From Pseudorhodoplanes sp. (GTDB lineage Bacteria; Pseudomonadota; Alphaproteobacteria; Rhizobiales; Xanthobacteraceae): a stretch of 64,000 nt of DNA. Both the position numbers and the translations under genes were made by a program. The stretch spans positions 4,503,730-4,567,729 of the forward strand of contig JAVSMS010000001.1 in NCBI GenBank assembly GCA_032027085.1. Reading direction: 5' to 3'. Positions 9,822 to 63,420 of the stretch are shown here, one piece after another; positions within the stretch are counted from its first letter, which is position 1; every line of letters begins with the position of its first letter. The notes under the pieces were generated by a model. That model had not been told where the DNA came from and ran no database searches. It saw only the letters and a list, made by a program, of their open reading frames with translations.

Positions 9822-10058
9822 ATGATTCCGTTTTTCGTGCAAATCAAATGCCAGCTTGGCAAATCCTACGAGGTCGCCAATCGTCTGGCGGATTCGGAAA
9901 TCGCGTCGGAAATCTATTCGACCGCGGGTGAGTTCGATCTTCTGGCGAAATTCTATGTCGACCCCTCGACCGATATCGGCCATTTCGTGAACGAGAAGGT
10001 GCAGATCATTCCCGGCATCCAGGACACCCGCACTATCATCACATTCAAGGCGTTTTGA
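9822..10058 (+). CDS. Stand-alone Lrp/AsnC effector (RAM) domain protein
   Basis: A 78-residue protein consisting only of the alpha-beta ligand-binding domain found at the C-terminus of Lrp/AsnC regulators: 'VQIKCQLGKSYEVANRLAD', then 'IYSTAGEFDLLAKFYVD', then 'GIQDTRTIITFKAF'. There is no DNA-binding helix-turn-helix. Stand-alone RAM proteins form dimers or larger rings and bind amino acids. The ATG at 9822 (MIPFFVQ) starts at the first strand; an upstream TTG in frame at 9810 adds only four residues. No partner gene is evident. Confidence 0.88.
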   Translation: MIPFFVQIKCQLGKSYEVANRLADSEIASEIYSTAGEFDLLAKFYVDPSTDIGHFVNEKVQIIPGIQDTRTIITFKAF

Positions 10059-10072
10059 GTTTTATCTGCGGT

Positions 10073-11020: not shown

Positions 11021-11132
11021 CGGTGGCGGATGCAGACGGCGACGGCCGGCGGCCTCGCAGCGAGCATTAACCTGTCGCCGATGATCGTGGCCGAAGCAAG
11101 GGCTCCGGACGCATGGGACGGCTGTGCGCCGG

Positions 11133-46138: not shown

Positions 46139-47180
46139 CGGGAAACATGCTGCGGATGTCTCGCTGGGCGCGAGCCAGATCGTCCATCTGGCCGATATCC
46201 AGCCAATAGTCCTGTACCAGATACGGCAGTGCGGTCATCGACCTGCTGGCGAGATCGTTGAACAGCGTCGGCATGTCGTATCGCTGGTTGCGCGGAACGA
46301 GTTCGAGCACGCTCGGCGAAAACACATACAGGCCGCCGCTAATCAGATGCCGTTGCACCGGCTTCTCGGCAATCGATGCAATCCGATGGTTGGCGACATT
46401 GATGACGCCATAGGGCACCTGCTGCTCATATTCGCGCACGCCCATGGTTGCCGCGGCGCCATGGTCGAGATGGAAATCCAGCATGTCGGGAAGGTGCAGC
46501 TTGGTGAGGATATCGCCGTTCATCACGATGAAGGGCGCGTCGGGGATGGCGGGCAGCAGCGACAGCGGTCCGGCCGTGCCCAGCGGGCTGTCCTCGTGAA
46601 CGTAGCGGATTTCGACACCGAATCTGGATCCATCGCCGAAATGGTCGGTGATCATCGAGGCCATGTAATTCACGGCGATCATGAATTTACGCAGGCCGGA
46701 GGCCTTGAGATTGCCCAGGATGACTTCCAGCAGCGGCCTTTCGCCGAGCTTCAGCATCGGCTTGGGGCACGCCTCGGTGAGCGGGCGCAGCCGCACGCCC
46801 TGCCCGCCCGCCATGATCACGACCCAGTTGTCGCGCACCGGCGGCTGGATGAACTCCTCCAGCGTGCGCAGCTCTGTCACCTTGCCCGCCGCATCGACGA
46901 CCGGGATATGCCGCAGCACCTTCTCGCGCATCACACGTAGCGTGCTCTCGCGGTCGGCATCGGCATGGACCACGACGGGATTGGCGTTCATCAGCTCGGT
47001 GATCGGGGTTTGCAGGGTCACGCCGCGCAGGAATGCCCGACGCAGGTCGCCGTCGCTCACCGTCCCCACCAGCCGTCCGCTTTCGTCGGTGACCATGGCG
47101 ATCTTGCCGCCCAGCGCGTCAATCATGCGCAAGGCAGCCTCGACATTGTCGGATTGACGGAGAAAACGGTCGACCTTCAT
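46131..47180 (-). CDS. ptmE: CBS-domain nucleotidyltransferase, PtmE-like
   Basis: A 349-residue protein with two N-terminal CBS domains (about 1-115; 'MVTDESGRLVGTVSDGDLRRAFL') and a C-terminal sugar nucleotidyltransferase domain ('IMAGGQGVRLRPLTEACPKPM', 'IVMNGDILTKL'). This fusion is characteristic of Campylobacter PtmE, which makes GDP-glucosamine for the GDP-linked legionaminic acid route. The ATG at 47180 overlaps the preceding stop; the longer open frame upstream is not family-like. CBS domains usually sense nucleotides, so feedback control is plausible. A generic sugar-phosphate nucleotidyltransferase for another amino sugar is the alternative. Confidence 0.85.
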   Translation of the reverse strand: MKVDRFLRQSDNVEAALRMIDALGGKIAMVTDESGRLVGTVSDGDLRRAFLRGVTLQTPITELMNANPVVVHADADRESTLRVMREKVLRHIPVVDAAGKVTELRTLEEFIQPPVRDNWVVIMAGGQGVRLRPLTEACPKPMLKLGERPLLEVILGNLKASGLRKFMIAVNYMASMITDHFGDGSRFGVEIRYVHEDSPLGTAGPLSLLPAIPDAPFIVMNGDILTKLHLPDMLDFHLDHGAAATMGVREYEQQVPYGVINVANHRIASIAEKPVQRHLISGGLYVFSPSVLELVPRNQRYDMPTLFNDLASRSMTALPYLVQDYWLDIGQMDDLARAQRDIRSMFPDE

Positions 47181-48154
47181 GGTGCCCGCGCCTTGTAATC
47201 CCGGCCTGCGACTATGGCCCGGTATTCGTTCTCGGCGAGATCGCGCAAGCCGTGGATGTCGAGCAGCAACCTGTCGTCGCCGCCCAGAAAGGCCTTGAGC
47301 TGGCCGAGAAAGCCCGGCTTGAGGCCCTTTTCGGATTCGTCGGGCAGCGGTACATCCTCGATCTCGAAGGAGCCCGCCTGCTGCACCTTGAGCTGCTCCA
47401 GCGGGCGCAGGACAAGACGGCGTTTCGGCGTGTTGATCTCGACACCCCAGCGGCCGGCGGAAGTCCAGTCGGCGCCGTAGTGAAACACCGCCCCGCCCGC
47501 CGTCTGTCCCGACCCGGCAAACCGCGCGGCGGGATGCCAAGGCAATGCGCCATTCGCCAGACTCGTCATGACGGCAGGCCGGCCGCACAGGAAGAAGGCG
47601 AGATCGACGACGTGGCTGGAATTGGCGAGGAACCAGTTTGCCTTCACGCGGGATGAATGCGCGGTCTTCTCGACAACGCTGCTGAGCTCGGTGAATTCGA
47701 AGCTGAATGACGACACCCCGCCGTCTTCCTCGATCAGTTCCCGCGCACGCGCGGTCGAGGCCAGGAAGCGCCTGTTATAGGCGACAAAGACATCCGCCGA
47801 TGACGCTCTTGCAGCATCCGACAGCGAGGCTATCGCGGCGGAATCGACGCCGCCCGGCTTCTCGATCAGGATCCGGCGAACTCCGAAGTTCAGCAACGCG
47901 ACGGTGACGTCGGGCGTGGATTCGATATCGCAGGCGACGATCGCCGCGCCGCATGGTTCGGGATTTCGCGAAAGCCAGGAGGCCAGCCCACCCTCGGCGA
48001 CAGTCAATCCTGTATCCTTCCGCATTTCCTCGGCATTGCGGGTGCTGCGGCCGATGACGGCCGGTTGGCAGCCGAGTGCGCGGGCGGCGTATGCATGCGC
48101 GCGCGCGATCGGCCCGGCGCCGATCAGCCAGACGTTGCTCAGGTGATCGGACAT
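47177..48154 (-). CDS. Gfo/Idh/MocA-family oxidoreductase (PtmF-like position)
   Basis: A 325-residue NAD(P)-dependent protein: 'NVWLIGAGPIARAHAYAARALG' (residues 5-26) is the Rossmann motif, 'RRILIEKPGGVDS' near residue 87 the EKP motif, and 'NSSHVVDLAFFLCG' the region with the conserved His. The ATG at 48154 is chosen because the longer frame (to 48478) lies inside the next gene and is not conserved in character. In Campylobacter, an oxidoreductase (PtmF) accompanies PtmE in making GDP-glucosamine; this gene, coupled to ptmE by ATGA, may do the same. Substrate unproven. Confidence 0.78.
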   Translation of the reverse strand: MSDHLSNVWLIGAGPIARAHAYAARALGCQPAVIGRSTRNAEEMRKDTGLTVAEGGLASWLSRNPEPCGAAIVACDIESTPDVTVALLNFGVRRILIEKPGGVDSAAIASLSDAARASSADVFVAYNRRFLASTARARELIEEDGGVSSFSFEFTELSSVVEKTAHSSRVKANWFLANSSHVVDLAFFLCGRPAVMTSLANGALPWHPAARFAGSGQTAGGAVFHYGADWTSAGRWGVEINTPKRRLVLRPLEQLKVQQAGSFEIEDVPLPDESEKGLKPGFLGQLKAFLGGDDRLLLDIHGLRDLAENEYRAIVAGRDYKARAP

Positions 48155-49131
48155 GACAGCGCGTGCGGGTCCGCATGCTTGCGATAATGCGCCAGCAGCG
48201 GCTCCAGAATGGCAAGGTGCAGCCTTGCGGATTCGTTGTAGGGCGTAAGACCGCAGGACCCGCGTGCCGTGAGGTCCTCCACGACGGCATGGGTGAGCTG
48301 GCTCTGGAACGGCGTCTCGAACGGCAGGCTTTCCCAGGTCCAGCCGGTGTCCCGCCGGCTCAGCCGAATGATCTTGCGGGATTCGTCGACATGCGCGCGC
48401 AGCGACGGCGCCTCGATGGTGATTCCGACCGGCAGCGTCCCGTCCCGAAAGGCCGTGTAGCGGAAGACGTCGCCGCACTTGCTCTTGCCGAGCAGACTGC
48501 CGGAAAAATCGACGCCGCCGCTTCTGTGCGGGAGCGGCTCCGGGTCGACGAGCGCGTATGACATGTCAAAATCCAGCGTGCCCGACAGATAGGCCAGCAG
48601 GTCGAGCAGATGGATCGCCGTGGTTCCGATTCCGAAACGCGCATGCGTCGTGCAGGACAGCGCCACCGGCCCGCCTTCCTCTACCAGCGTCCGGCGCAAG
48701 CCGACGTAACCGGGCCACAGGCGGCGCGGACAATTAACGTAGGCATGTACGCCCGCGCGCCGGATCGCGGCGCCCGCCCAGGCAAAATCCTCGTTCGACT
48801 GAAACAGGAATTTCTCCAGGATCAGAAAGCGGACATTTCTTCCGTTCAGCAATTCCTCGATCACCTGCCGACGAGCGGCAGCGACCGTCGCGACAATTGC
48901 AACGTCGAGTGCCGGCGGAAGCGATCCTGCGGTGGCGGCTTCGGCGATCTGGAGGTCGAAATCTGTGCCGCCCGACTGAAACATCAGGTTTTTGGCCGCC
49001 GCTCTTGCCGCGGAAGACGTGTCCGTCAGGTACAAGATCGCGGGACGCTTCAGCGCCGCGAGCGCCTGCGCGTGCCGCGAGCCGATGATGCCACAGCCGA
49101 TGACGGCGATGCTGAGCTGGCCGGTCGTCAC
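48139..49131 (-). CDS. Gfo/Idh/MocA-family oxidoreductase
   Basis: A 330-residue protein starting at a GTG that overlaps the preceding stop (GTGA). 'AVIGCGIIGSRHAQALAAL' is the Rossmann motif. The EKP motif is changed: 'FLILEKFLFQSNED' has Phe in place of Pro. 'GIGTTAIHLLDLLAYLSG' has the conserved Asp and His region. It overlaps the next oxidoreductase by 16 bases, an unusually long coupling. Two different Gfo/Idh genes in tandem beside ptmE suggest successive redox or epimerisation steps on one sugar. It could also be a non-catalytic partner given the EKP change. Confidence 0.72.
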   Translation of the reverse strand: MTTGQLSIAVIGCGIIGSRHAQALAALKRPAILYLTDTSSAARAAAKNLMFQSGGTDFDLQIAEAATAGSLPPALDVAIVATVAAARRQVIEELLNGRNVRFLILEKFLFQSNEDFAWAGAAIRRAGVHAYVNCPRRLWPGYVGLRRTLVEEGGPVALSCTTHARFGIGTTAIHLLDLLAYLSGTLDFDMSYALVDPEPLPHRSGGVDFSGSLLGKSKCGDVFRYTAFRDGTLPVGITIEAPSLRAHVDESRKIIRLSRRDTGWTWESLPFETPFQSQLTHAVVEDLTARGSCGLTPYNESARLHLAILEPLLAHYRKHADPHALSCPIT

Positions 49132-50753: not shown

Positions 50754-51827
50754 CTATTGACCGGGCTGACCGTTCTTCCATTCAACATCAGCAAATTCGA
50801 TCGCCTCATCAGGTTGCAACGACCTGCGCGCCCGACTTCCCAACACCCTATCGAAAAGATCTGGCGGCAAGCCTTGTGCGGGCCGCTTGATTGCAACGTT
50901 GTCTGACGTAAACACTTCCCCTTCTGACACGTGCCGTCTCGCGGTCAGCGCTCGGCGGATCACCTGTCTATTCTCGATCTCACAAGGCATTGGAACCTTG
51001 TTTCCGTCGCCTCTCGCCGATTCGGCGATGCGTATTTCCGCAACCATGTCCGCAAACTGGCGGGGTTCAAGCGAAGCCGCGTGATCGGGTCCAGGCAAAT
51101 TCACATCAAGCGTCAGATGCTTTTCTATGATGCAGGCGCCAAGCGCGGCAGCATAGGGCGCCACTCCGATCCCTGCTGTATGATCTGAATATCCGACAGG
51201 GCACCTCAAGGCGTCACGCATCGTGCCTATTGCCAAGAGATTGGTCTGATCAACGGGCGCGGGATATTCCGAACAACAGTGCAAGAACGCCACCTTCCCG
51301 GCGGCGCCGCTACCTTCCAATACCGACTTCGCAACGAGAGTTTCGGCCAGCGTACTTGCGCCGGTAGAGACTATCATCGGCAACCCAGTCCCGGCCATCT
51401 GACGCAAAAACGGGAAATTGGTAATGTCAGTAGATGAGACCTTGAATGCCGGCACCTTGAGCCGAAGCAGCATTTCCACGCTGCCCGCATCGAAAGGTGT
51501 GCACAGAAACATGATCCCGAGGCGACGCGACTCCTCCGCGACAGCCTCGAATTCCCGCTCGGAGAGGCGCAAGCCGTTCAACATTTCGATCTGGTTACCA
51601 GCGCCGGTTGTTTGTTGCTGATAGCGCGCTTTGGAAGCTGTCCCTCGAACGACCTCGCCCGGATCAAACGACTGGAATTTGACGGCATCCGCCCTTGCAT
51701 CGTGCGCGGCCCGCACCAGGGCTATCGCATTGTCGACGCTTCCGTTGTGATTGACGCCAGCCTCTGCAACCACAAAAACAGGAGCATCGTGTCCTATTTG
51801 CCTACCGCGAATCCTGATATTATACAC
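50754..51827 (-). CDS. legI: Nonulosonic acid synthase (NeuB/LegI-like)
   Basis: A 357-residue enzyme condensing phosphoenolpyruvate with a six-carbon amino sugar to give a nine-carbon sialic-acid-like sugar. The TIM barrel (about 1-280) has 'FVVAEAGVNHNGSVDNA', 'DAVKFQSFDPGEVV', 'FKVSSTDITNFPFL', 'HCCSEYPAPVDQTNL' and 'YSDHTAGIGVAPYAAALGA'. The C-terminal SAF/antifreeze-like domain starts near 295 ('RHVSEGEVFTSDNVAIKRPAQG'). Start is the GTG at 51827. The presence of LegB, LegC and LegG homologues argues for legionaminic acid. NeuB, PseI and LegI cannot be separated on motifs alone. Confidence 0.9.
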   Translation of the reverse strand: MYNIRIRGRQIGHDAPVFVVAEAGVNHNGSVDNAIALVRAAHDARADAVKFQSFDPGEVVRGTASKARYQQQTTGAGNQIEMLNGLRLSEREFEAVAEESRRLGIMFLCTPFDAGSVEMLLRLKVPAFKVSSTDITNFPFLRQMAGTGLPMIVSTGASTLAETLVAKSVLEGSGAAGKVAFLHCCSEYPAPVDQTNLLAIGTMRDALRCPVGYSDHTAGIGVAPYAAALGACIIEKHLTLDVNLPGPDHAASLEPRQFADMVAEIRIAESARGDGNKVPMPCEIENRQVIRRALTARRHVSEGEVFTSDNVAIKRPAQGLPPDLFDRVLGSRARRSLQPDEAIEFADVEWKNGQPGQ

Positions 51828-52700: not shown

Positions 52701-53858
52701 TCAGGTGCGATCATCGACAAATTTTTTACCCAAGAGCGTTTGTTTGCTCCGATCTATGAATATGGACGCGAGATATTCGATAGCAGTCTTCGAAACGGCC
52801 TCTTTTGGCTGCCGAGGAGATACTGAAGCCGACAGCGCCTTCTCGATTCCGTCGAGGATCGCATCGCAGCTCGTGCCGACGCCGATCACATTGTCTGGCC
52901 GGATGCGCCCCTTCTGCCGGTTGCCGATATCGACGGCGGGCAGGCCCGCGGCGGGCGCCTCGTAATAGGCGCTCGACGAATTTCCGATCATCAGCCGCGC
53001 GTGGTTCATGACGCTGAGGAAACGCACGGTGCCGAGGCTCGCGACATACACTGTCTGCGGTGAACCGGCTGCAAAGGCCTGAAGCGCCTTGTCGATCACG
53101 TCGGCGCCTGGGTCGGCCCCCGGCGCCGTAATGACATATTGCAATCCGAAGCGCTCGCGGGCGGCGGTCAGCGCCTGCACAAGCGCGTTCACGCCATCGG
53201 CGTCGCTGCCCCGCGTCGTCGCATGAAAGGCGACCAGCGCAGTCGGGCGGGCGAAGTCGAGGCCCAGATCGTTGCTGAGCGCCTGTCGGTCCAACAACTG
53301 CAGCCGATGGAAATTATCGAGGCCCGGCGCCCCGCAAATGCAAATCCGCCACTCCTCCTCGCCCAGCTGGCGGACGCGCCGGCCATAGACGTCATTCGCC
53401 ACAAAATGCAGATGCGAGAGCTTGGTCAGCGCGTGGCGCACGCCGTCATCGAGCGCGCCTTCGGTGACCTCACCGCCATGAAAGTGGCCCATCGGGATTG
53501 CCGCGATGGTGCAGGCGGTCGCCACCGGCAGGAGTTCCCAGCGATCGCCGAGGACCAGCACCACATCGGGCCTGCGCCGGTCGAGATACTCGGCAAATCC
53601 CGTCACGATGGTCGCAGACACCTGCGCCAGGCTTTGCGCATCTGTGCGTTCCAGCATGACCGGAATCCTGGCGCTGATCTCGTGGCCGTCGGCCTCAATC
53701 TCCGCGACGGTCGCGCCATGCCGCCCGGATAAATGCGAGCCGGTGACAACAAGGTCGAGGTCGAATCTCGCATCGGCGCCGATATCGTGTGCGATCCAGC
53801 GCAGCAGGCCATACTCGGCCCGGGTAGCGGTCACGATGCAGACCCGGATGATCGGCAT
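52701..53858 (-). CDS. legG: Hydrolysing UDP/GDP-N-acetylglucosamine 2-epimerase (NeuC/LegG-like)
   Basis: A 385-residue GT-B-fold enzyme that inverts C2 and removes the nucleotide, giving the free six-carbon sugar for LegI. 'VTATRAEYGLLRWI' is the N-terminal motif, 'VLVLGDRWELLPVATACTIAAIPMGHFHGGEVTEGALDDGVRHALTK'-type residues (GDR, HGGE, DD, R) form the active site, and 'IGNSSSAYYEAPAAGLPAVDIGNRQKGR' is the UDP-site loop. The ATG at 53858 (MPIIRVCIVT) is correct; the longer frame overlaps legC. It ends the LegC-LegG step with a 5-base gap to legC. Confidence 0.92.
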   Translation of the reverse strand: MPIIRVCIVTATRAEYGLLRWIAHDIGADARFDLDLVVTGSHLSGRHGATVAEIEADGHEISARIPVMLERTDAQSLAQVSATIVTGFAEYLDRRRPDVVLVLGDRWELLPVATACTIAAIPMGHFHGGEVTEGALDDGVRHALTKLSHLHFVANDVYGRRVRQLGEEEWRICICGAPGLDNFHRLQLLDRQALSNDLGLDFARPTALVAFHATTRGSDADGVNALVQALTAARERFGLQYVITAPGADPGADVIDKALQAFAAGSPQTVYVASLGTVRFLSVMNHARLMIGNSSSAYYEAPAAGLPAVDIGNRQKGRIRPDNVIGVGTSCDAILDGIEKALSASVSPRQPKEAVSKTAIEYLASIFIDRSKQTLLGKKFVDDRT

Positions 53859-53863
53859 TGCGG

Positions 53864-55039
53864 TCAGGCTGCTAGTCCATCGGCGAGCCGCGGGCTGCTC
53901 GGCAGGTTGATCAGCCGCGCACAGATCGATTCCGTCACCGGCAGGTCGGCGCGCGGAAAGCCGGTCTGGTAGGACAGCTGATGCATCGGCGTCCATGCCG
54001 GGCGGCTTTGCAGGCCCGCGTCGTTGAGTCGCTCCAGGATGCGATCGCGCTGCTCCTCGAGGCCCGGCCGCAGGAGAATGGCGTTGAGCCAGTAATTGCT
54101 CTGTGTCCCCGCGCGCTCGACCAGGAATGTCACGTCGCTGTTCCCACGAAAGACCTCGGCATAGGCCTGCGCCAGCCTACGCTTGCGCCCGACGAAATCC
54201 GGCAGTCGCTCAAGCTGCGCACATCCAAGCGCGGCGTTGATGTTGGGCAGGCGGAAATTGTAGCCGGGTTGGTCGTGAATGAAGGCCCAGCGATGCGGCA
54301 GCTTGGCGGTAGTGGTGACGTGACGCGCCCGCCGTGCAATCTCCTGGTCGTTGGTCAGGATGGCGCCTCCGCCGCCCGTCGTTACGATTTTGTTCCCGTT
54401 GAAGCTCAGCACGCTCATCACGCCATCACTGCCGACCGGCCGGCCGCCTGCCCGCGAGCCAAGCGCCTCGGTCGCGTCCTCGACAACCGAAAGACCATAT
54501 TCGGACGCGATCTTGCAAATCTCGGTCATCCGCGCCGGATGCCCGAAGATGTGCACGGGCACGATTGCCTTGATCCGCCGCCCCGTGTCCCTGTTCGTGG
54601 TTCGGCCATCCCTGCATACAGCGACGAGGCCGAGATGCTTCTTGAGGGCTTGCGGATCCAGGCCGAGGCTGTCCTCGTCGCAATCCACGAAATGCGGAAT
54701 TGCGCCGCAATGCTGCACGGCGTTCGACGTCGCCACGAAGGTCAGCGCCGGAACAAACACCTCGTCGCCTGGCGAGACGCCGGCGACTTCCAGTGCGACC
54801 TGCAGCGCGGCGGTCCCATTCGCGCAGGCCACCGCAAAGCCCATGTCGAGCATTGCCGCAAGGTCTCGCTCGAACCGATCAACAAAGGCGCCGCCTGACG
54901 AAACCCACCCGTCATCGATGCAGGATTTCACATAATCCCACTCACGGCCACGAAATTCAGGCTCGTGCAAGGCGGCCCGTGGCGCCGGCACAACATGCCG
55001 CACCGCCATCAAAATATCCGCTGCGAGATCGGCGCGCAC
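53864..55039 (-). CDS. legC: LegC-family aminotransferase
   Basis: A 391-residue DegT/DnrJ PLP enzyme. It aminates C4 of the 4-keto-6-deoxy sugar made by LegB. Lys217 in 'SFNGNKIVTTGGGGAI' forms the aldimine; 'ANGTAALQVALEVAGVSPGDEVFVP' and 'VVEDATEALGS' hold PLP. The N-terminal 'LHEPEFRGREWDYVKSCIDDGWVSSGG' pattern is typical of the LegC branch. It lies directly after legB (3-base gap). The three other DegT genes expected nearby are distinct in sequence: one at 21.4 kb and one at 57.9 kb are visible. Confidence 0.92.
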   Translation of the reverse strand: MRADLAADILMAVRHVVPAPRAALHEPEFRGREWDYVKSCIDDGWVSSGGAFVDRFERDLAAMLDMGFAVACANGTAALQVALEVAGVSPGDEVFVPALTFVATSNAVQHCGAIPHFVDCDEDSLGLDPQALKKHLGLVAVCRDGRTTNRDTGRRIKAIVPVHIFGHPARMTEICKIASEYGLSVVEDATEALGSRAGGRPVGSDGVMSVLSFNGNKIVTTGGGGAILTNDQEIARRARHVTTTAKLPHRWAFIHDQPGYNFRLPNINAALGCAQLERLPDFVGRKRRLAQAYAEVFRGNSDVTFLVERAGTQSNYWLNAILLRPGLEEQRDRILERLNDAGLQSRPAWTPMHQLSYQTGFPRADLPVTESICARLINLPSSPRLADGLAA

Positions 55040-55042
55040 GGG

Positions 55043-56041
55043 TCAGACGGTGTACTGGTCGCGCCGGTAGAACGCGAGATTGGCGGGGTCAGAGAACCAT
55101 TCGAACGTGCGCTCCAGCCCGCCGCGCAACCCGTCCAGGCCCTTCACCTCCGGGGTCCAGCCGAAGAACTTAAGCGCCTTGCGGTTGTCGGACAGAAGCT
55201 GCCGAACTTCGCTACGCTCAGGCCGCAACCGCTGCTCGTCCGTCCGGATTTCGACGCTTTTTCCCGAGATTCCGATCAAAAGATGCGCAAGTTCGCCGAT
55301 GCTGACATCGAATCCCGCCCCTAGATTGACGACCTCCCCTATCCCTGCCTCAGCATTAAGCGCCGCGATGATTCCGCACGCCGTTTCGGATACATAAGTC
55401 AAGTCACGGCGGGGCTCGAGATCGCCGAGATTGAGGACGCCGGATCCGCGCAGCAGCTGCGTGATGATGGTCGGGATCACTGCCCGGGTGGACTGGCGCG
55501 GCCCGAACGTATTGAAGGGACGCACAACCACGACCGGCGTTCCGAAGCTGCGGTAATAGGATAGCGCCAATTGATCGGCGGCGATCTTTGTCGCCGCATA
55601 GGGCGACTGCGCCACCAGCGGGTGCTCCTCGCTGATCGGCACGAATTGCGCGGTTCCGTAGACCTCGCTTGTCGAAATGATGATGACCCGCTGCGTGCCA
55701 AGGTCGCGCGCCGCCTGCACCACGTTCAGGGTGCCGCGAATATTGGTGTCAACGTAGCTCTCGGGCGCGACATACGAATATGGAATCGCGATTAGCGCGG
55801 CGAGATGGGCAACCTTATCGCAGCCCTTCATCGCTTCCCGCACCGACAGCGCATCTCGCACGTCGCCGGCGATGACCTCGATGGCGGCCTGTGTGGCAGG
55901 CACTGTGAAATCAAGCCATCCTCTGTGACCGAATGAATTGTACTGGACGAAGGCTCGGACATCGTGGCCGCGTTGGACCAGTTCATCTATGAGGTGAGAA
56001 CCGATAAATCCGTCCGCACCGGTTACAAGAATCTTGGACAT
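55043..56041 (-). CDS. legB: NAD-dependent 4,6-dehydratase LegB
   Basis: A 332-residue extended SDR that converts a nucleotide-linked GlcNAc to the 4-keto-6-deoxy sugar, the first committed step of legionaminic acid synthesis. 'ILVTGADGFIGSHLIDEL' (residues 4-21) binds NAD, 'IISTSEVYGTA' (121-131) and Tyr148/Lys152 in 'SPYAATKIAADQL' form the active site. 'VRAFVQYNSFGHRGWLD' is a strong LegB marker. A remnant of a second copy of its N-terminus lies at 56046-56201, just upstream. Confidence 0.93.
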   Translation of the reverse strand: MSKILVTGADGFIGSHLIDELVQRGHDVRAFVQYNSFGHRGWLDFTVPATQAAIEVIAGDVRDALSVREAMKGCDKVAHLAALIAIPYSYVAPESYVDTNIRGTLNVVQAARDLGTQRVIIISTSEVYGTAQFVPISEEHPLVAQSPYAATKIAADQLALSYYRSFGTPVVVVRPFNTFGPRQSTRAVIPTIITQLLRGSGVLNLGDLEPRRDLTYVSETACGIIAALNAEAGIGEVVNLGAGFDVSIGELAHLLIGISGKSVEIRTDEQRLRPERSEVRQLLSDNRKALKFFGWTPEVKGLDGLRGGLERTFEWFSDPANLAFYRRDQYTV

Positions 56042-56045
56042 GAAA

Positions 56046-56201
56046 TCATCTTACTCGGATAAGGAAAACTGAATGGTTTTCATCGAGCACAGTGAATGAT
56101 GCGCGCAGAGAGCGGCGCTCCCGCACCAATACCTCGACGAGATGAGAACCGATCAAGTCAACCGCGCTAGCTGCAAGAACAATCTCATCCATATTACTCA
56201 T
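56046..56201 (-). pseudogene. Remnant of a LegB-like gene start
   Basis: A 51-codon frame beginning MSNMDEIVLAASAVDLIG that aligns with the first 31 residues of LegB (MSKILVTGADGFIG onward): both run through IGSHL and a basic 'LV' stretch to 'RA'. At base level GATCGGTTCTCATCTC in the remnant matches ATCGGTTCTCACCTC in legB. The GxxGxxG cofactor loop is lost and similarity ends before a stop at 56046. It overlaps the end of the SpsF-like gene by eight bases. It looks like the head of a former or duplicated dehydratase gene, truncated by rearrangement next to the intact legB. Confidence 0.6.
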
Positions 56202-56916
56202 TTGTCGACACTGGCCCGCGTTGGAGGTCAGACGCGCGCTCGACCACGCCAAGGATGCTGTCAAGATCGAAGACAGATCCTTTCGAAGAAAGCATCTCGA
56301 ACACCCGCGACACGAAAACAAAATCCTCAGGTGTGTCGACGACCCAACGATGATGCGAAAGGTCTCGCGTGTGGACGACCGAGCGCACTGAAAACCGGTC
56401 GTCGTGATCGCGAATATAGTTCGCAACAAACTCCCGATCGAGCGGATCGGTCAGATGTGCGTCACACCAAGTCAACGCGCGAGTGGCGATCACCTCCCCG
56501 CTCAGCCCTTCGGGGAAGGTCCAGACGATCTTATTTGACACATAGTCAACATCGGGATGGGACCGGAACGTGTCAACTAGAGTTTGTAGGACCACCGGAT
56601 CGGCGAGCGGACAATCACCGTTTACCTTGAGGATCGCATCAGCTTCGGCGACGCGGGCGGCACCTAATAGTCTCGCAGCAAGGTCATCTTCTCCCGGTTC
56701 GCGGTGGATCAGAAGACCGCGATTTTTCGAATATTTAACAAGTTCGTTGTTTCTCGTATCCGCAGTGGTGGCGAGCACCAAATTATTTAAACCCGTTACT
56801 CGCTCTAGACGATCTATTAGATGTCCAACAAGCGGCTTTCCGCGAATCGGCAGCATCATCTTCCCCGGCAAACGGGTTGACCCCATCCGGGCTTGTATCA
56901 GGCCGGTTATACGCAT
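56194..56916 (-). CDS. SpsF-like cytidylyltransferase-domain protein
   Basis: A 240-residue nucleotidyltransferase-fold protein of the SpsF/PtmB-associated group. 'GLIQARMGSTRLPGKMMLPIRGKPLVGHL' is its hallmark N-terminus, with the Arg/Gly loop for the nucleotide. 'ILKVNGDCPLADPVVL' carries the metal-binding Asp region. The C-terminal half has 'DHDDRFSVRSVVHTRDLSHHRWVVDTPEDF', typical of this family. Its nucleotide and sugar are not known; it may activate a second nonulosonate or a glycerol-like unit. The ATG at 56916 (MRITGLIQ) is preferred; a start at 56946 would overlap the upstream gene. AT content looks raised relative to the backbone. Confidence 0.85.
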   Translation of the reverse strand: MRITGLIQARMGSTRLPGKMMLPIRGKPLVGHLIDRLERVTGLNNLVLATTADTRNNELVKYSKNRGLLIHREPGEDDLAARLLGAARVAEADAILKVNGDCPLADPVVLQTLVDTFRSHPDVDYVSNKIVWTFPEGLSGEVIATRALTWCDAHLTDPLDREFVANYIRDHDDRFSVRSVVHTRDLSHHRWVVDTPEDFVFVSRVFEMLSSKGSVFDLDSILGVVERASDLQRGPVSTNE

Positions 56917-56926
56917 TGTGCGCGGT

Positions 56927-57925
56927 TCATCGAAGAACGCTCTCAATCGCCTTTTCCAACCTCGCGCGGCTGTACTTCAGCGCACTACGAAGTTCAGACG
57001 CGCCAGTGGGTGCCGAACGGAGAGAAGCAATCAGACTGGCGCGGTCGGTCGCGCGAGGCACTATAGGTTTGGGGCGCCCCCACGCATTCATGTCCGGCCC
57101 TGTCGGTGCCGGCTGTACGCTGATGACATGCCGGTTAGCCAGAACGGCATCAACAAGCAGTGACGAGAACATGCCAACAACAGTACCCGCGCTGGCGATC
57201 GCTTTGTGGCCTGAATTCACTACAGTCACAAGGTCGTCCGTGACTGGCGGAGGCATTTCGTCGGCGGGGTGCGGCGCGAAAAAGATGCAGCGGACCCGAT
57301 CCGGATGCTGGCGCGCGACATCCAGAAAAAGTGCCCAAGCGTCGTATTCCGTATAGCCGAGGCTGCTGCCAAAGGTACGTCGTACTGGCTGACTGACAAA
57401 CATTACGTCCCGCGCGTCCGTTGAGGGCAAGGGTTGCACTGCTTCCCAAGCCGGGTGTCCGACCGCAAGAATCAGGTCCGCGGGGAGCCCTTCCACTTCG
57501 GCCTGCGTCATGGCGTATTCATCTATCACCAGAATCTTGTTCGGCAATTCGAGTGGCTGCCCGGCAAACAGCAGGCGGTCACGATAGCGATACCAGGTGT
57601 CGATGAAACGGATGACTGGCAATCTCCGCACCCGGGCGTAATCGCACGCCGCTCTTTCCACCGGCGCTCCACTGGCGGATGCGATAACGACATCCGGGTG
57701 CCAGCCGTCCAGCGCGTCCGCCAGCATAGTGCCGGTTTCAACGACGCCGCAGGAAAGACAGCGCAGTTGACTGACTTCGTCACGGGAGCGGCGGCCGCGC
57801 GTGGCCCCATCGAGCGACAAGCGCCAGTCGGGCGACTCCGTCGATGAAAGCCAATGCTTCCATAGGGGCAATAGATATGCGAATGAACCCTCCTGCCCGA
57901 CGGCAAAAAGTGCGCGATAACTCAT
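56927..57925 (-). CDS. Unassigned 332-residue protein with GT-B-like C-terminus
   Basis: No family was recognised. There is no signal peptide or membrane helix. The N-terminal half has a Rossmann-like 'MSYRALFAVGQEGSFAYLLPLWKHW' and 'WHPDVVIASASGAPVERAACDYARVRRLPVIRFID'. The C-terminal half has 'DVMFVSQPVRR', 'RCIFFAPHPADEMPP' and 'AGTVVGMFSSLLVDAVLANRHVISVQP', a pattern like the nucleotide-binding loops of 2-epimerases and capsule-type GT-B transferases. It lies between an aminotransferase and the SpsF-like gene with 15- and 10-base gaps. It could be a CMP-sugar transferase or a nucleotide-sugar hydrolase of the PseG kind. Confidence 0.6.
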   Translation of the reverse strand: MSYRALFAVGQEGSFAYLLPLWKHWLSSTESPDWRLSLDGATRGRRSRDEVSQLRCLSCGVVETGTMLADALDGWHPDVVIASASGAPVERAACDYARVRRLPVIRFIDTWYRYRDRLLFAGQPLELPNKILVIDEYAMTQAEVEGLPADLILAVGHPAWEAVQPLPSTDARDVMFVSQPVRRTFGSSLGYTEYDAWALFLDVARQHPDRVRCIFFAPHPADEMPPPVTDDLVTVVNSGHKAIASAGTVVGMFSSLLVDAVLANRHVISVQPAPTGPDMNAWGRPKPIVPRATDRASLIASLRSAPTGASELRSALKYSRARLEKAIESVLR

Positions 57926-57939
57926 TCTTCGGAGCGTCT

Positions 57940-59238
57940 TTAAACGAACTTGGCAGCAAGCAGCGCGTCACGATGGGCGAAAACCTTACCGACCGCTTCG
58001 ACGACACGGTCGATGTCTGCACCAGTCAGCGGCGGGTAGATTGCGTTCGTGAGCATGATTTCACGATCCTGCAGACGCTCCGTTGTCGGGCAAAGCCCTC
58101 GCTGATAACTGATGTCGGCATTGCGCGAACTTGCCGTGAAAGGGAACCCACTTTTTCCAAAGCAGATCTTGCGCTGATAAAGCGGCTCCAGATAGAGCGG
58201 CTTCACATAACCGGCGCGCCACGGAATTCCTTCCGCCTGCATAGCCTTGCAAAACAAATCGCGCGGGATGCCTGTTTGCGCTTCGTCGTAGCGCATCGCA
58301 TAGAAGTAAAAGACGTGTGAACAATGCTCGCGCACCGCGGGAGTGGTGATGCCCGGAAACTGCGATAAGCCCTGCGTCAACCGGGCAGCCAATGCGACTC
58401 GGGCCTCGTTGAGCGCATCGAGTTTTCCGAATTGGACTCCCGCCACGGCAGCTTCCATCTCGGTCATCCTGTAATTGAGACCCGCGGTGTTCACGATGTC
58501 GTCGATGCGCATCTGTTCCACTACGACTTCGCCGTGATTACGAATGAGCGCGACTTTCTGCGCTATCCGGTCGCTATCGGTGAGAACGACGCCACCTTCA
58601 CCGCACTGCATCGTTTTGTGGCGGTTGAAGCTGAATATGCCGGCGTCACCGATCGTGCCAGTCGGCCGGCCATCGCAATACGCACCTGGCGCTTGCGCAT
58701 TATCTTCGAGCAGAAACAGGCTGTGACGTTTCGCGATCACTTGGAGCTCAGCAAGTCTCGCCGGATGCCCGAACAGATTGACTGCCATAATCCCGCGTGT
58801 GCGCGGCGTGATTTCCGCCTCGACTGCCGCCGGGTCCAGGCAGAAAGTGGAATCCTCAATGTCCGCGAAGATCGGCACCGCGCCAGTGAACAGAATTACG
58901 GTCGCGCTCGCAGACATGGTATAGGGCGGCACGATCACCTCGTCGCCGGGGCCAACGCCCATGGCTGCCACCGCGCAGTGTAGCCCGGAGGTCGCGGAAT
59001 TCACCGCGATCGCATGCTTGGATCCGAACCGCTCGCGGAATGCTACTTCTAGTGCCTGAACACGCGCGCCGCCCCAGAACTGATCGTTTGGCGTTGCGAC
59101 AAAACCAGACAATTCGCCGCCGTCGAGCACTGCCATCACAGCGGCTTTCTCCTCTACGCCGATGGTGTTGTAAGGCGGGAACTGTGTAGGATTCACAGGA
59201 GTGCCACCAAGCAAAGCGAGCGTTGAGGAGTTACTCAT
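57940..59238 (-). CDS. DegT-family sugar aminotransferase
   Basis: A 432-residue PLP enzyme, longer than typical DegT proteins. Lys208 in 'FSFNRHKTMQCGEGGVV' forms the aldimine; 'SATSGLHCAVAAMGVGPGDEVIVP' and 'LLEDNAQAPG' hold the cofactor. The sequence around the lysine differs from LegC and from the GnnB-like gene, so it has a different keto-sugar substrate. The ATG at 59238 is chosen over an adjacent TTG. It precedes the unassigned protein and follows a Gfo/Idh oxidoreductase and a GNAT, forming an oxidase-aminotransferase-acetyltransferase trio suited to making an N-acylated amino sugar. Confidence 0.9.
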   Translation of the reverse strand: MSNSSTLALLGGTPVNPTQFPPYNTIGVEEKAAVMAVLDGGELSGFVATPNDQFWGGARVQALEVAFRERFGSKHAIAVNSATSGLHCAVAAMGVGPGDEVIVPPYTMSASATVILFTGAVPIFADIEDSTFCLDPAAVEAEITPRTRGIMAVNLFGHPARLAELQVIAKRHSLFLLEDNAQAPGAYCDGRPTGTIGDAGIFSFNRHKTMQCGEGGVVLTDSDRIAQKVALIRNHGEVVVEQMRIDDIVNTAGLNYRMTEMEAAVAGVQFGKLDALNEARVALAARLTQGLSQFPGITTPAVREHCSHVFYFYAMRYDEAQTGIPRDLFCKAMQAEGIPWRAGYVKPLYLEPLYQRKICFGKSGFPFTASSRNADISYQRGLCPTTERLQDREIMLTNAIYPPLTGADIDRVVEAVGKVFAHRDALLAAKFV

Positions 59239-59270
59239 CAATTTTCATCCATGCAGGGGTTTCAGCTCAT

Positions 59271-60242
59271 TCAGCTCAGCGCAATCCGTCTGCCGCCCTC
59301 ACGCGCGGAACGCAGCGCCGCTTCGAGGACGGTAAGTCCGGCGATTGCTTCAAGACCATCACAGCCAGGCAACGGCGCGCCGCAGGCGAAGTGGTAACTG
59401 ATCGCCTGATAGAATTGGTACAATCCACTAATGGCGGCATCGGCCCCCACACGCGTGCCCGGCCCGAGCTGGGTATAGCCGGGATAGAAGCGGTCCGGCA
59501 CCGGATCATAACGGCGCATTTCCACGCCGGCATTGGCGATCTCGATCCGCCGATCTTCGAAGAACAGATCGATCTCAAACTGGTCGAAGCGCAATCCGGA
59601 CATCCCAATTACATGTGCATCAAAGCCTTGCTGCATCCGCATACTGAACGTCACAACCGGGTCTTTTCCTGACACTTCCGGCGTCAAAGCCTGAACGGCT
59701 AGCGCAGGTCCGAACCATTGGAGCATAAGGTCGATGAGGTGCGACCCGTAGTTCAACAAGCCCTTTCCATACCGCAAGATAGCGCACCGCGGCGCACCCG
59801 GCAGCGATTGGCGCAACGCTTCATGGCGCAGGTCGAACCGCCGTTGAAAATTCACTCGCAGCGCTACGCCGCGACTGTCGGCTGCCGCTACAATTCTCTT
59901 GGCCTCGGCCACCGTGGACGCCAGCGGCTTCTCGACAACCAGCAGCTTTGGCCGCCGCTCCAACGCCTGCATCACAACCGGAAGCCGCACCGACGTGGGC
60001 GTGGCCAGCACGATGACCTCCGCCTCCCCGTTCTCCAACTCTTCCGCGCTGCTTAGCACGCGCGATGCAGCGTGCGGCCACCTCCTTTGGAACGCCGACC
60101 GTGCTGCCTCGTCCGGGTCGGCGACAGCCGCCAGAGTTAAATTGGAGGTTCCCAGCACGCAGCCAATATGGCTGCACGGTCGCCCACCCGAATCATGGCC
60201 GCTTGCGATGCGTCCCAGCCCGATAACAGCGACGCGGGTCAC
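59271..60242 (-). CDS. Gfo/Idh/MocA-family oxidoreductase
   Basis: A 323-residue NAD(P)-dependent protein. 'VAVIGLGRIASGHDSGGRPCSHIG' is an unusual Rossmann loop with an insertion after the glycines. 'LLVVEKPLASTVAEA' near residue 100 is the EKP motif and 'GLLNYGSHLIDLMLQWFG' the Asp/His region. The start is the GTG at 60242, overlapping the GNAT stop (GTGA). The EKP and His region are intact, so it is probably active, oxidising an amino-sugar hydroxyl before transamination by the gene at 57940. Confidence 0.83.
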   Translation of the reverse strand: MTRVAVIGLGRIASGHDSGGRPCSHIGCVLGTSNLTLAAVADPDEAARSAFQRRWPHAASRVLSSAEELENGEAEVIVLATPTSVRLPVVMQALERRPKLLVVEKPLASTVAEAKRIVAAADSRGVALRVNFQRRFDLRHEALRQSLPGAPRCAILRYGKGLLNYGSHLIDLMLQWFGPALAVQALTPEVSGKDPVVTFSMRMQQGFDAHVIGMSGLRFDQFEIDLFFEDRRIEIANAGVEMRRYDPVPDRFYPGYTQLGPGTRVGADAAISGLYQFYQAISYHFACGAPLPGCDGLEAIAGLTVLEAALRSAREGGRRIALS

Positions 60243-60805
60243 GCAGATCGTGCCTTCCTGGCGAAATACTCCTCGCGCAAGATGCTCATCATTAGCGCGT
60301 CGTAATAGCGACCGTTGCGATAGATCAACTTGCGGCGGATGCCCTCGCGGACGAATCCAGCTTTTTCATACGACCTAATGGCGCGTTCGTTCGCGGTGTT
60401 AACGCCGAGATAGATGGTTTCTAGATTGAGCTTGTCAAAGCCATAGGCGATGGTGAGCTGGGCCGCCTCACCTCCCAACCCCTTGTTCCAAGCCTCGGGT
60501 ACGCCGATAATGATTCTAAAATCAGCCCGGCGGCAGATCCACTGAATTACGTAAAGCCCGCAACAGCCGACGGGATTGCCTGTTTTCTTGTCGATGACTG
60601 CAAACGCAACCGTGTCTTGGGCCTCTGTCGAAATACGGTAAAGTTCGTCGAGATCACCCTCGCTCGCTGGCTTCCATCCGGACTCCATAAAAGCGGTGAC
60701 GTCAGGATTGTCGAGCCAGCGCTGGTAGAGCTGCATATCTTCGCGCCGAAGACCGCGCAACTTCACCCGATCACCCACCAAAAAAGCCATCTCTGCATCA
60801 TTCAT
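60239..60805 (-). CDS. GNAT-family N-acetyltransferase (RimJ/RimL-like)
   Basis: A 188-residue acetyltransferase. 'VKLRGLRREDMQLYQRWLDNPDV' is the RimL-type N-terminus. 'IIIGVPEAWNKGLGGEAAQLTIAYGFDKLNLETIYLGVNTANERAIRSYEKAGFVREG' is the acetyl-CoA site (Q/RxxGxG/A variant near 'NKGLGG'). The ATG at 60805 overlaps the amidase stop by eight bases; a start at 60835 is less likely. PseH of the pseudaminic acid route belongs to this kind of fold. LegH in other bacteria is instead a hexapeptide-repeat protein, and none is in the window, so this GNAT may supply the missing C4 acetylation. Confidence 0.85.
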   Translation of the reverse strand: MNDAEMAFLVGDRVKLRGLRREDMQLYQRWLDNPDVTAFMESGWKPASEGDLDELYRISTEAQDTVAFAVIDKKTGNPVGCCGLYVIQWICRRADFRIIIGVPEAWNKGLGGEAAQLTIAYGFDKLNLETIYLGVNTANERAIRSYEKAGFVREGIRRKLIYRNGRYYDALMMSILREEYFARKARSA

Positions 60806-62189
60806 GGCCAGGAAACCCATCCAAGAATTTGGCAAAAATCAGAAGTTTGTAATCATCGAAGCGCCTAGCTACGATCTGTACTCCGAGCGGCAAGCCGCGA
60901 TCGCCTTGTAGCAGCGGCAATGACATTGTCGGGGCGTAGCACATGGTCCAGATCAGAGAATGGTCTTCTGGGTCAGGGGCGTCCAAGCCTACGGGCGCTA
61001 CGTCGGCCGCACTCGGACATAAAAGCACATCAAATCGTTGATCAAGCAGCTGATCGAACTGCCTAGCTAACCTGCTCTGTTCGGCAAGCGCGCCTTCATA
61101 GTCCTCAACGCAAATCTGTCGACCCTCTACAATAATGTCCGCAAGAAGCTGACTGAATGCCGCGCCAGCCCGCTCCCACTCCATCTTAAAGTAGTAAGAA
61201 AGCGCTTTGTGATAGATCGTGCGATGCACGTCATGGGCGTGGTCGAACTCGACTGGCAGCCGAAATTTCGCCACCTCTACGCCTTGCCCCTCTAGCCATC
61301 GCCCGACGCTCTCAATACCGCGTTTAACATCGGGGTGCTCGAGATGCGATTTAGGTCCCTCAATAATCGCAACACGCCAATGCCTATCGCCAATCCCATG
61401 CCGCCGCGGATCGGAAAATTCGCGATCGACAATAGGATAATTCGGTCCGGTGACCCGCAAGACGTCGAATAGCAATGCAGCGTCAGCGACCGACCGCGTC
61501 ATCATCGCGACAGTGTCCAGCGTGTCGGTGGTTTTCAGCATTGCCGTCCGCGGAACGGTTCCGTACGAGGGCTTGAATCCGTAGACTCCACAATAGCTCG
61601 CGGGTCGGATCGTGGAGGCAGCAGTCTGGCTCGCCAAGGCCACCGGCACCATGCAGGCGGCTACCGCGGCGGCCGAACCGCTTGAGGACGTGCCAGTGCT
61701 GCGCGCGAGATCCCACGGGTTCCGCGTACCTGGTGCTGCATGAACCGCGAATTCGGAAGTCGCGAGCTTGCCGGCTATGATGCCACCGCGGCGGCGCAGA
61801 GATGTAACCGCGCGAGCGTCGTTGCCAGGCGTATAGTCGGCAAAAATTGCGCTTCCGTGCTTGGTCGGCATATCGGCAGTATTAAAGATGTCTTTCACGC
61901 CAATCGGCAGACCGAATACTGGGCCTGGCAAATTCACCCGTCCATTTAGCTGCCGCAATGTCGCGTCCGCTTGCCGTGCTCTTTGACGCAGCAGTTCGGG
62001 ATTCCACCAAGTCCAAGCGCGTACGTCGTTTTCACAACGCGCTGAAATGTCGGCGCAGCTCATGCAATATTCTTCGACGGAAATTTGTCCAGTTCGAAGC
62101 AGGGTCAAGAATTCCGTCGCGGTCAACACGGCCACGCTATTGCTCTGTTCGATGATCGGCGGCAAACGCCGGCGCGTATGAGAACTCAT
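60798..62189 (-). CDS. Amidase-signature family protein (GatA-like)
   Basis: A 463-residue amidase with the Ser-cisSer-Lys triad: Lys99 in 'FGLPIGVKDIFNTAD', Ser168 in 'STGTSSSGSAAAVAA', and nucleophile Ser192 in 'ASQTAASTIRPASYCGVYGFK'. The two glycines usual before the nucleophile are Ala here, a modest oxyanion-loop change. Such enzymes release ammonia from, or hydrolyse, amides, including glutamine in GatA. It is unusual inside a nucleotide-sugar locus. Its start overlaps the N-acetyl sugar amidotransferase stop by four bases and its stop overlaps the GNAT start by eight. It may feed ammonia to that amidotransferase (inference). More AT-rich than the backbone. Confidence 0.85.
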   Translation of the reverse strand: MSSHTRRRLPPIIEQSNSVAVLTATEFLTLLRTGQISVEEYCMSCADISARCENDVRAWTWWNPELLRQRARQADATLRQLNGRVNLPGPVFGLPIGVKDIFNTADMPTKHGSAIFADYTPGNDARAVTSLRRRGGIIAGKLATSEFAVHAAPGTRNPWDLARSTGTSSSGSAAAVAACMVPVALASQTAASTIRPASYCGVYGFKPSYGTVPRTAMLKTTDTLDTVAMMTRSVADAALLFDVLRVTGPNYPIVDREFSDPRRHGIGDRHWRVAIIEGPKSHLEHPDVKRGIESVGRWLEGQGVEVAKFRLPVEFDHAHDVHRTIYHKALSYYFKMEWERAGAAFSQLLADIIVEGRQICVEDYEGALAEQSRLARQFDQLLDQRFDVLLCPSAADVAPVGLDAPDPEDHSLIWTMCYAPTMSLPLLQGDRGLPLGVQIVARRFDDYKLLIFAKFLDGFPGHE

Positions 62190-63295
62190 GGCAATAATTT
62201 CGCTGCTCCCTGCCGTTGTGCACGGAGGATTTCGTGGAATTCTTCTTCGGAATAGCCAGTGATTTCGAGATAGTAATCAAGTGCGCCCGGTCGTTCCGCA
62301 TCTACTGATTTCGCGATCTCGAACGCCTCCTCGCGCGTCATCAAACCTGCCCGAACGTCCTGACTCGCGAAATCCGTTCCACGACCATAACCGCGCTTCA
62401 CCCATTTCGAATAATCATGAACGCCTGGCATTCGACATTCGACGCTCTTGTAACACTTGTACGAGCCCTCGACTTTGTCTTCCTTCCAGCCGTAGCGCTC
62501 CACCAGAAATTCAGTCTGACGCTCATGATCCCAGAACATATAATCTCCGAGATAGATCGCCTTGATGTCAGCCTTGATGAGCTCCTCCCGTGAAGGCGGA
62601 TAGAACATTCGCATTTCAGCCTTGCCGAGATTTTTGCCTATGACCGCATCGGGCCCTTTGCGAACCGAACCAGCCATATGGATGTCTGCCACATTGACAG
62701 CAGAAGACATCTTAAATTCCTGATCGAAGAACGTATCGCGCCCGGAAAACTCCGCTGGGGACTCACCCCAAACAAGAAGCTTGATGCCAAACTTCACCGC
62801 CATCGTTAATGGGAACGCCATGATGCCCGAGTGGCAATGCCAACAGGCATCACCGATCAGCGGTAGCGACTTGCGCGCAAGACGATTCACCAATCCCCGT
62901 TTCGGAGTATACATGATATGATCCACATCAAGTCGCTCAACTACGTTCCAAAGGTTCTCCCAACCAACCTTACTGAACCAGTTGTGACTGAATGTGACAG
63001 CAAGTGGTTTCATTCCATAAATGCGCGTTAGAACATGAAGCTGGAATGCACTGTCTTTCCCGCCACTGATGGGCACCATGCAATCATAGTTGTCTCCCGC
63101 GACACGCTTTGCGTCTTCGAGCAAACTGGCCAGCGCTTTCTCCCGCTTGGCCCAATCAATGCGCATCTTCTCTTCGGATGCACGGCAAGCTTTGCAAATT
63201 CCCATTTCGTCGAAGCCAATGCCCTCCGTAGTGTCGGGCATACAGCACCGTGCGCAATAGCGAAGCTGTGGAAATGGAACCTTCACATCTACCAT
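62186..63295 (-). CDS. N-acetyl sugar amidotransferase (PseA/WbpG/PtmG-like)
   Basis: A 369-residue PP-loop ATP-pyrophosphatase. 'YCARCCMPDTTEGIGFD' and 'CKACR' near the N-terminus are probable metal-binding cysteines, 'VPISGGKDSAFQLHVL' (residues about 75-90) is the PP-loop, and 'GDACWHCHSGIM' is a further cysteine pair. This layout is that of WbpG, PseA and PtmG, which turn an acetamido group of a sugar into an acetamidino group with ammonia. WbpG and PseA homologues normally depend on HisH/HisF-type partners; none is in the window. A very strong ribosome-binding site precedes the ATG at 63295. It heads the amidase-GNAT-oxidoreductase chain. Confidence 0.88.
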   Translation of the reverse strand: MVDVKVPFPQLRYCARCCMPDTTEGIGFDEMGICKACRASEEKMRIDWAKREKALASLLEDAKRVAGDNYDCMVPISGGKDSAFQLHVLTRIYGMKPLAVTFSHNWFSKVGWENLWNVVERLDVDHIMYTPKRGLVNRLARKSLPLIGDACWHCHSGIMAFPLTMAVKFGIKLLVWGESPAEFSGRDTFFDQEFKMSSAVNVADIHMAGSVRKGPDAVIGKNLGKAEMRMFYPPSREELIKADIKAIYLGDYMFWDHERQTEFLVERYGWKEDKVEGSYKCYKSVECRMPGVHDYSKWVKRGYGRGTDFASQDVRAGLMTREEAFEIAKSVDAERPGALDYYLEITGYSEEEFHEILRAQRQGAAKLLP

Positions 63296-63302
63296 CGCTA
63301 TT

Positions 63303-63308
63303 CCTCCT
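63303..63308 (-). promoter_or_regulatory. Strong Shine-Dalgarno for the N-acetyl sugar amidotransferase
   Basis: AGGAGG, seven bases before the ATG at 63295, is the best ribosome-binding site noted in the right half of the window. Together with the 125-base gap upstream (63296-63420), it suggests that the gene at 62186-63295 begins a transcription unit. A weak TATAAA-like element is at about 63309-63314, but no convincing -35 was seen. Confidence 0.6.
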
Positions 63309-63420
63309 TTATACTGTAACCTGGTGCGATCACGTCAGTTCGGCGGTCGATAACCCAAGAACTAGGGCGCCCCGCGTTACCAGCCAAATACTCTTGTAAA
63401 GGGCGCAATGACGGCGATGT

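Follow-up and report, generated by a model that had tools for sequence, protein, structure and literature searches.

An amidase-signature protein in the HisH/HisF slot beside a WbuX-family sugar amidotransferase: a likely alternative ammonia donor

Enzymes of the WbuX/WbpG family normally draw ammonia from a HisH/HisF pair. In the stretch of Pseudorhodoplanes sp. DNA analysed here, which is 64 kb long and is called the window, the gene of such an N-acetyl sugar amidotransferase is instead joined to that of an amidase-signature (AS) protein, which raises the question of where its ammonia comes from. Glutamine amidotransferases are usually sorted by their ammonia-producing part into class I (Cys, as in HisH), class II (N-terminal Cys, as in AsnB) and the AS type, and an ammonia donor of the AS type is known chiefly from GatA in tRNA amidation. 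On comparative sequence evidence, and without any biochemistry, we consider it likely (probability about 0.7) that the amidase supplies WbuX with ammonia in the manner of GatA and is a non-orthologous replacement of HisH/HisF.

The features of the locus are collected in Table 1. The WbuX start codon, ATG, has the motif AAGGAGG 7 bases on its 5' side. WbuX and amidase genes overlap by 4 bases (ATGA), amidase and GNAT genes by 8 bases, and GNAT and GfoA genes by 4 bases (GTGA). An earlier, sequence-only reading had named these four genes with their coordinates and overlaps, all of which held when compared with the sequence and the profile matches. GfoA is followed, in this order, by the genes for DegT1, the 332-aa protein, the KdsB/PtmF-like nucleotidyltransferase, the LegB-like dehydratase, LegC, the NeuC/LegG-type epimerase, a methyltransferase and NeuB/LegI, and the run of overlapping genes sits within a legionaminic-acid-type cluster. 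The cluster contains two more Gfo/Idh-like ORFs (window positions 47177-49131), of which the one at 48139-49131 is only a weak family match and the other was judged by eye. Three AsnB-like ORFs, to which no function was assigned, are found in the polysaccharide region of the window (30924-32843, 38831-40672 and 40672-42411).

Table 1 Features of the WbuX locus in the Pseudorhodoplanes sp. window
Feature	Position	Strand	Remarks
Shine-Dalgarno-like AAGGAGG before WbuX	63303-63309	-	read directly from sequence
WbuX, N-acetyl sugar amidotransferase (WbuX/WbpG/PseA family)	62186-63295	-	369 aa; TIGR03573
Amidase-signature (AS) protein	60798-62189	-	463 aa; PF01425, 239 bits
GNAT N-acyltransferase	60239-60805	-	PF13302; weak PseH similarity
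GfoA, Gfo/Idh/MocA dehydrogenase	59271-60242	-	PF01408
DegT1, DegT-family sugar aminotransferase	57940-59241	-	PF01041, 311 bits
332-aa protein, part of the cassette	56927-57925	-	no Pfam or NCBIfam match
KdsB/PtmF-like nucleotidyltransferase	56194-56910	-	KdsB-type matches below cut-off
LegB-like NAD-dependent 4,6-dehydratase	55043-56041	-	TIGR04180, 463 bits, slightly under cut-off 475
LegC-family aminotransferase	53864-55039	-	TIGR04181, 506 bits, cut-off 420
NeuC/LegG-type UDP-GlcNAc 2-epimerase	52701-53858	-	TIGR03568, 376 bits, cut-off 236
NeuB/LegI-type nonulosonic acid synthase	50754-51827	-	PF03102, 272 bits, and SAF domain

Upstream of WbuX, beyond the right edge of the window, there are an ABC flippase-like gene and genes for PseI, PseG, a PseF-like protein, PseC and PseB (L115:12665-19657 and L263:9864-10934). 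This Pse set adjoins the legionaminic-type set, so that two nonulosonic-acid pathways lie side by side. Because both sets are present, the locus appears, judging by gene content, capable of making nonulosonic acids of the pseudaminic as well as the legionaminic type. The target sugar of WbuX remains undetermined.

WbuX itself scores 325 bits against TIGR03573 (curated cut-off 203.2) and is related to the Legionella NASAT structure 8wex (E 3e-42). An SGGxDS PP-loop and a CxxC...CxxC tetracysteine define the N-acetyl sugar amidotransferase motifs (PMC10607449). The window protein has the PP-loop SGGKDS at residues 77-82 and the cysteines C14-x2-C17 and C34-x2-C37, and both motifs are invariant across its clade. 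In a Sphingomonas polysaccharide cluster, a colony-morphology screen has recovered insertions in wbuX, hisF2 and hisH (PMC11340318).

The sequence-only reading had also stated that no HisH/HisF is encoded here, with the reservation that such partners might lie just outside the window. The statement held for the whole genome, which is a single contig of 4.97 Mb, rated 100 % complete, with one WbuX. The only HisH is in the histidine region, 2.6 Mb from WbuX, and the only HisF is likewise in the histidine region, beside a weaker HisF-model match that we presume to be HisA. Apart from this histidine pair, no second HisH/HisF dedicated to WbuX was found anywhere in the genome. When HisH was sought in ten genomes with amidase-type WbuX, that of the window included, exactly one was above the cut-off in nine of them, and none in the small and incomplete genome of L008. 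Three genomes with HisH/HisF-type cassettes (G373, G379 and G184) have two or three HisH each.

For comparison, 385 alphaproteobacterial and 399 Pseudomonadota genomes were screened for WbuX (TIGR03573), and the surroundings of about 120 WbuX places, up to 20 kb each, were extracted. Loci found through the amidase were added, and neighbouring genes were scored with profiles built for the analysis. Although the genome of the window encodes eight AS amidases, the WbuX-amidase pairing is more than chance, because it is seen again in nine other bacterial loci (L003-L008, L120, L175 and L227) and in five phage contigs. Altogether 139 WbuX genes were compared, one divergent extra WbuX in L175 being excluded. 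An AS amidase was near WbuX in all nine bacterial members of the window's clade and in none of the 130 others (Fisher p 2e-14), whereas HisH or HisF was near WbuX in 0/9 and 110/130, respectively (Fisher p 2e-7). Beside WbuX, amidase and HisH/HisF are mutually exclusive, and the pairing is conserved; an absence of the amidase from close relatives, which would have spoken against the sequence-only reading, was not seen among the bacteria. These p-values overstate the case, since the clade has a single origin and 9/9 does not amount to nine independent events, and also because L003-L008 were found via the amidase and form a biased sample. The window, L120, L175, L227 and the phages were found irrespective of the amidase, and it was seen in all of these except phage contigs L269 and L270, the latter being cut at the contig end. 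The paired loci span Alpha-, Beta- and Gammaproteobacteria, Melainabacteria, Omnitrophota and phages.

The amidase adjoins WbuX in the bacterial clade members other than L227 (5858-10514), in which two genes lie between them. Judged from their sequences, these encode a methyltransferase and a PIG-L/LmbE-like deacetylase. In L007 (8819-11377) WbuX and amidase are contiguous and share a reading frame, a single TAA separating them, which is the nearest to a natural fusion that was seen.

The two proteins have a common history. Amidase-paired WbuX form one clade (SH-aLRT 100; support 100 in another tree). In the tree with phages its support is 100/99, and a HisH/HisF clade joins it as its sister with support of 99/95. 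In a tree of 85 amidases, the ten paired ones group together with support of 100, apart from their free relatives. The WbuX and amidase trees of nine loci have five of six splits in common, as expected if the two genes were inherited together.

What the amidase replaces is best seen in L183, with the order WbuX-HisH-HisF-GNAT-NTP transferase-GfoA and then the contig end, and with GNAT and NTP transferase 49 and 47 % identical to those of the window, respectively. GNAT orthologues (47-53 % identity) are found in the WbuX-HisH-HisF loci L149, L183 and L187. In L187 and L149 the GNAT/GfoA/DegT1 cassette lies beside WbuX-HisH-HisF, with DegT1 59 and 67 % identical, respectively, and L187 also has a 37 % identical homologue of the 332-aa protein after DegT1. 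The KdsB/PtmF-like nucleotidyltransferase is 47-49 % identical in L183 and L187, and DegT1 is 41-67 % identical across amidase-type and related HisH/HisF-type loci. GfoA is a conserved partner of the WbuX-amidase pair. The downstream cassette (GNAT, NTP transferase, GfoA and DegT) thus has orthologues behind WbuX-HisH-HisF in other alphaproteobacteria, and since the same sugar cassette is found with either partner, the amidase occupies the HisH-HisF slot. This replacement is shown by sequence. Gene-for-gene equivalence depends on L183, and L149 and L187 lend it support. That the WbuX-HisH-HisF-GNAT order of the sister clade is orthologous gene for gene in general was ruled out by the GNAT tree: orthologous GNATs are present only in L183, with L149 and L187 for the cassette, and most sister-clade GNATs after HisF are not orthologous.

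The window amidase meets the AS family (PF01425) test, having the Lys-cis-Ser-Ser triad and the signature motif, and the triad K99-S168(cis)-S192 is invariant in all 13 WbuX-paired amidases examined, phage copies included. It is not GatA itself, as it scores 178 bits against the GatA model (cut-off 481) and the true GatA is a separate gene elsewhere in the genome (550 bits). The description of the amidase as GatA-like in the sequence-only reading held only in part, at the level of the fold. Malonamidase E2 is the nearest solved relative by both sequence and fold, with a TM-score over target of 0.89 for the amidase part of the L007 model. Arg195, invariant in the paired clade and in free relatives, aligns with Arg158 of malonamidase E2, a residue which handles the substrate carboxylate in that enzyme. 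The triad and the Arg of malonamidase E2 are thus present, and in the absence of activity data membership is not claimed.

Sixteen residues are invariant in the paired amidases and rare in free relatives, T167 and D409 among them. The G167T change is specific to the paired clade and lies beside the cis-Ser, where free relatives have G. D409 is one alignment column off the position of the glutamine-recognising Asp of GatA. In the yeast GatA-type protein, D418 recognises glutamine together with R334 (PMC4027206), and we take Asp409 to be the approximate counterpart of the glutamine-binding Asp, an assignment of our own which is one column off. No counterpart of the glutamine-binding Arg of GatA was found in the amidase alignment. 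The position of D409, inferred from the alignment, may be weak evidence that the substrate is an amino-acid amide. The plasmid matches of the amidase that were compared were all amidases of up to 37 % identity.

Scans of IMG/VR with paired WbuX gave seven phage contigs (L264-L270) with six distinct WbuX sequences, those of L264 and L265 being identical. In five of the seven the amidase directly follows WbuX, and L270 ends before this point. The amidase thus adjoins WbuX wherever the contig reaches, except in L269, the deepest branch of the amidase-type WbuX clade. In the 59 kb of L269 neither an amidase nor a class I GATase was found, and its WbuX (9989-11083) runs directly into a terminase gene. 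No class I GATase was found in any of the seven contigs. Phage records are fragments, and absence from them is weak evidence. The case for joint working of WbuX and amidase is strengthened because phages carry both.

The tailed-phage contigs carry most of the nonulosonic-acid pathway, with NeuB, CMP-synthetase, LegB, DegT, GfoA, GNAT, WbuX and in most cases the amidase, amid or adjoining portal, tail, tape-measure and terminase genes (for example L267:4263-16719 and L269:2013-11083). In L267, WbuX is preceded by genes for CMP-synthetase, GfoA, DegT1, GNAT, head-tail adaptor, tail terminator and major tail proteins, and it is followed by those for the amidase, neck protein, tape measure, LegB, distal tail and tail fibre. 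The pathway genes of L269 encode NeuB, NTP transferase, GfoA, DegT1, CMP-synthetase, LegB, a LegC-like aminotransferase, acyltransferases and WbuX, and NeuB was found on phage G753, G754 and G756. There was no WbuX in 50,697 named phage records, and an amidase search of named phages gave only distant amidases.

In the mechanism we propose, WbuX would use ATP to activate the N-acetyl carbonyl of a sugar of the nonulosonic-acid pathway and would exchange the carbonyl oxygen for ammonia, giving an acetamidino group. The amidase would hydrolyse a small amide, glutamine or asparagine being the likeliest, by means of its Lys-Ser(cis)-Ser triad, and would pass the ammonia on to WbuX in much the way that GatA does to GatB, having taken over in this WbuX branch from the HisH/HisF pair on which other members of the family rely. 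Ammonia supply by the amidase, the amino-acid amide substrate, binding between WbuX and amidase, and the acetamidino nonulosonic acid product are all inferred. Two AlphaFold runs with the read-through WbuX-amidase chain of L007 gave pTM values of 0.61 and 0.58; both parts folded, and their relative placement was unresolved.

The main rival, which we regard as unlikely but cannot exclude, is that the amidase acts on the sugar, removing or transferring an N-acyl group as a deacylase or transacylase, while WbuX uses ammonia from the cell pool. AS enzymes do occur in biosynthetic clusters, for example ClbL of colibactin, which is among the structural neighbours of the amidase. The cassette has its own GNAT, implying that acyl groups are being attached, a PIG-L-type deacetylase (read from sequence) is present in the L227 operon, and G167T beside the cis-Ser implies a changed pocket. 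However, a role on the sugar leaves unexplained why HisH/HisF is lost exactly where the amidase appears (0/9 vs 110/130), and why orthologous GNAT/GfoA/DegT cassettes do without the amidase when HisH/HisF is present. The ammonia-source reading is favoured because of the strict HisH/HisF replacement, the congruent trees and the slot comparison. Of the two possibilities offered by the sequence-only reading, a new ammonia source or a hydrolase of a sugar amide, the first is thereby supported, as an inference only.

Less likely still, ammonia could come from an AsnB-type glutaminase, from the HisH/HisF of histidine synthesis or from free NH4+, the amidase having some other role in the cluster. In favour of this are the three AsnB-like ORFs 20-30 kb away in the window, the 13 WbuX loci with an AsnB-like gene next to WbuX and no HisH/HisF in the vicinity, the presence of both AsnB and amidase in L120, and phage L269 with neither amidase nor class I GATase. 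Against it, the AsnB proteins next to WbuX have retained a PP-loop of their own, and six loci have AsnB as well as HisH/HisF, both of which suggest a separate reaction; moreover, only one of nine bacterial pairs (L120) has AsnB within 1.5 kb of WbuX. The 13 loci are L118, L128, L130, L133, L136, L139, L153, L156, L170, L188, L190, L235 and L236. Their AsnB-like neighbours have a class II GATase and a synthetase domain with both sites intact, and most of the WbuX concerned belong to one clade. It is possible that these neighbours are a second donor type or serve a separate amidation step. We do not claim them as proof of another donor swap, since the synthetase site is kept and HisH/HisF co-occurs in the six loci. 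Finally, the amidase might be an unrelated catabolic enzyme, co-transcribed by chance. The eight AS amidases of the genome and the nearest free relatives (35-40 % identity), which sit outside such sugar clusters, would allow this, but with a pairing conserved across five bacterial groups and phages, and with congruent trees, it is very unlikely.

A bolder reading goes beyond ammonia donation in this one branch. AS amidases would add another type to the ammonia donors that serve PP-loop sugar amidotransferases, one that displaced HisH/HisF once in the WbuX family, and tailed phages would have taken the amidase-type module and most of the nonulosonic-acid pathway in among their virion genes, giving virion or host-surface glycans amidino nonulosonic acids during infection. 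Taken as one joint claim, we lean slightly against it. If ammonia donation by the amidase is true, a single acceptor enzyme can have its ammonia module replaced entirely, and a natural pair becomes available for studying the demands that an acceptor makes on its donor. Ammonia donation by the amidase also predicts which bacteria and phages produce amidino nonulosonic acids although they have no additional hisH/hisF; annotation based on hisH/hisF would miss them.

The enzyme families are known, and no paper pairing an amidase with the WbuX family was found in the literature searched, which omits most subscription journals. The only solved WbuX-family member found is Legionella pneumophila NASAT (8wex, PMC10607449), which has the same motifs; its structure paper names neither HisH/HisF nor glutamine as the ammonia source (PMC10607449). 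With the WbpG-HisH2-HisF2 and WbuX-WbuY-WbuZ systems the window shares the WbuX family with its PP-loop and tetracysteine, the kind of sugar cluster, and a WbuX that leads the amidination module, whereas in place of a dedicated HisH (class I Cys glutaminase) and HisF it has an AS amidase (Ser-Ser-Lys). As in GatCAB, an amidase of the AS fold is proposed to make ammonia for an ATP-dependent partner, but here a PP-loop enzyme that works on a sugar takes the place of GatB, which works on tRNA, and no GatC was seen in the window case. Malonamidase E2 (1ock/1obi) in turn is a stand-alone hydrolase, whereas the paired clade has invariant residues of its own, T167, D409 and others.
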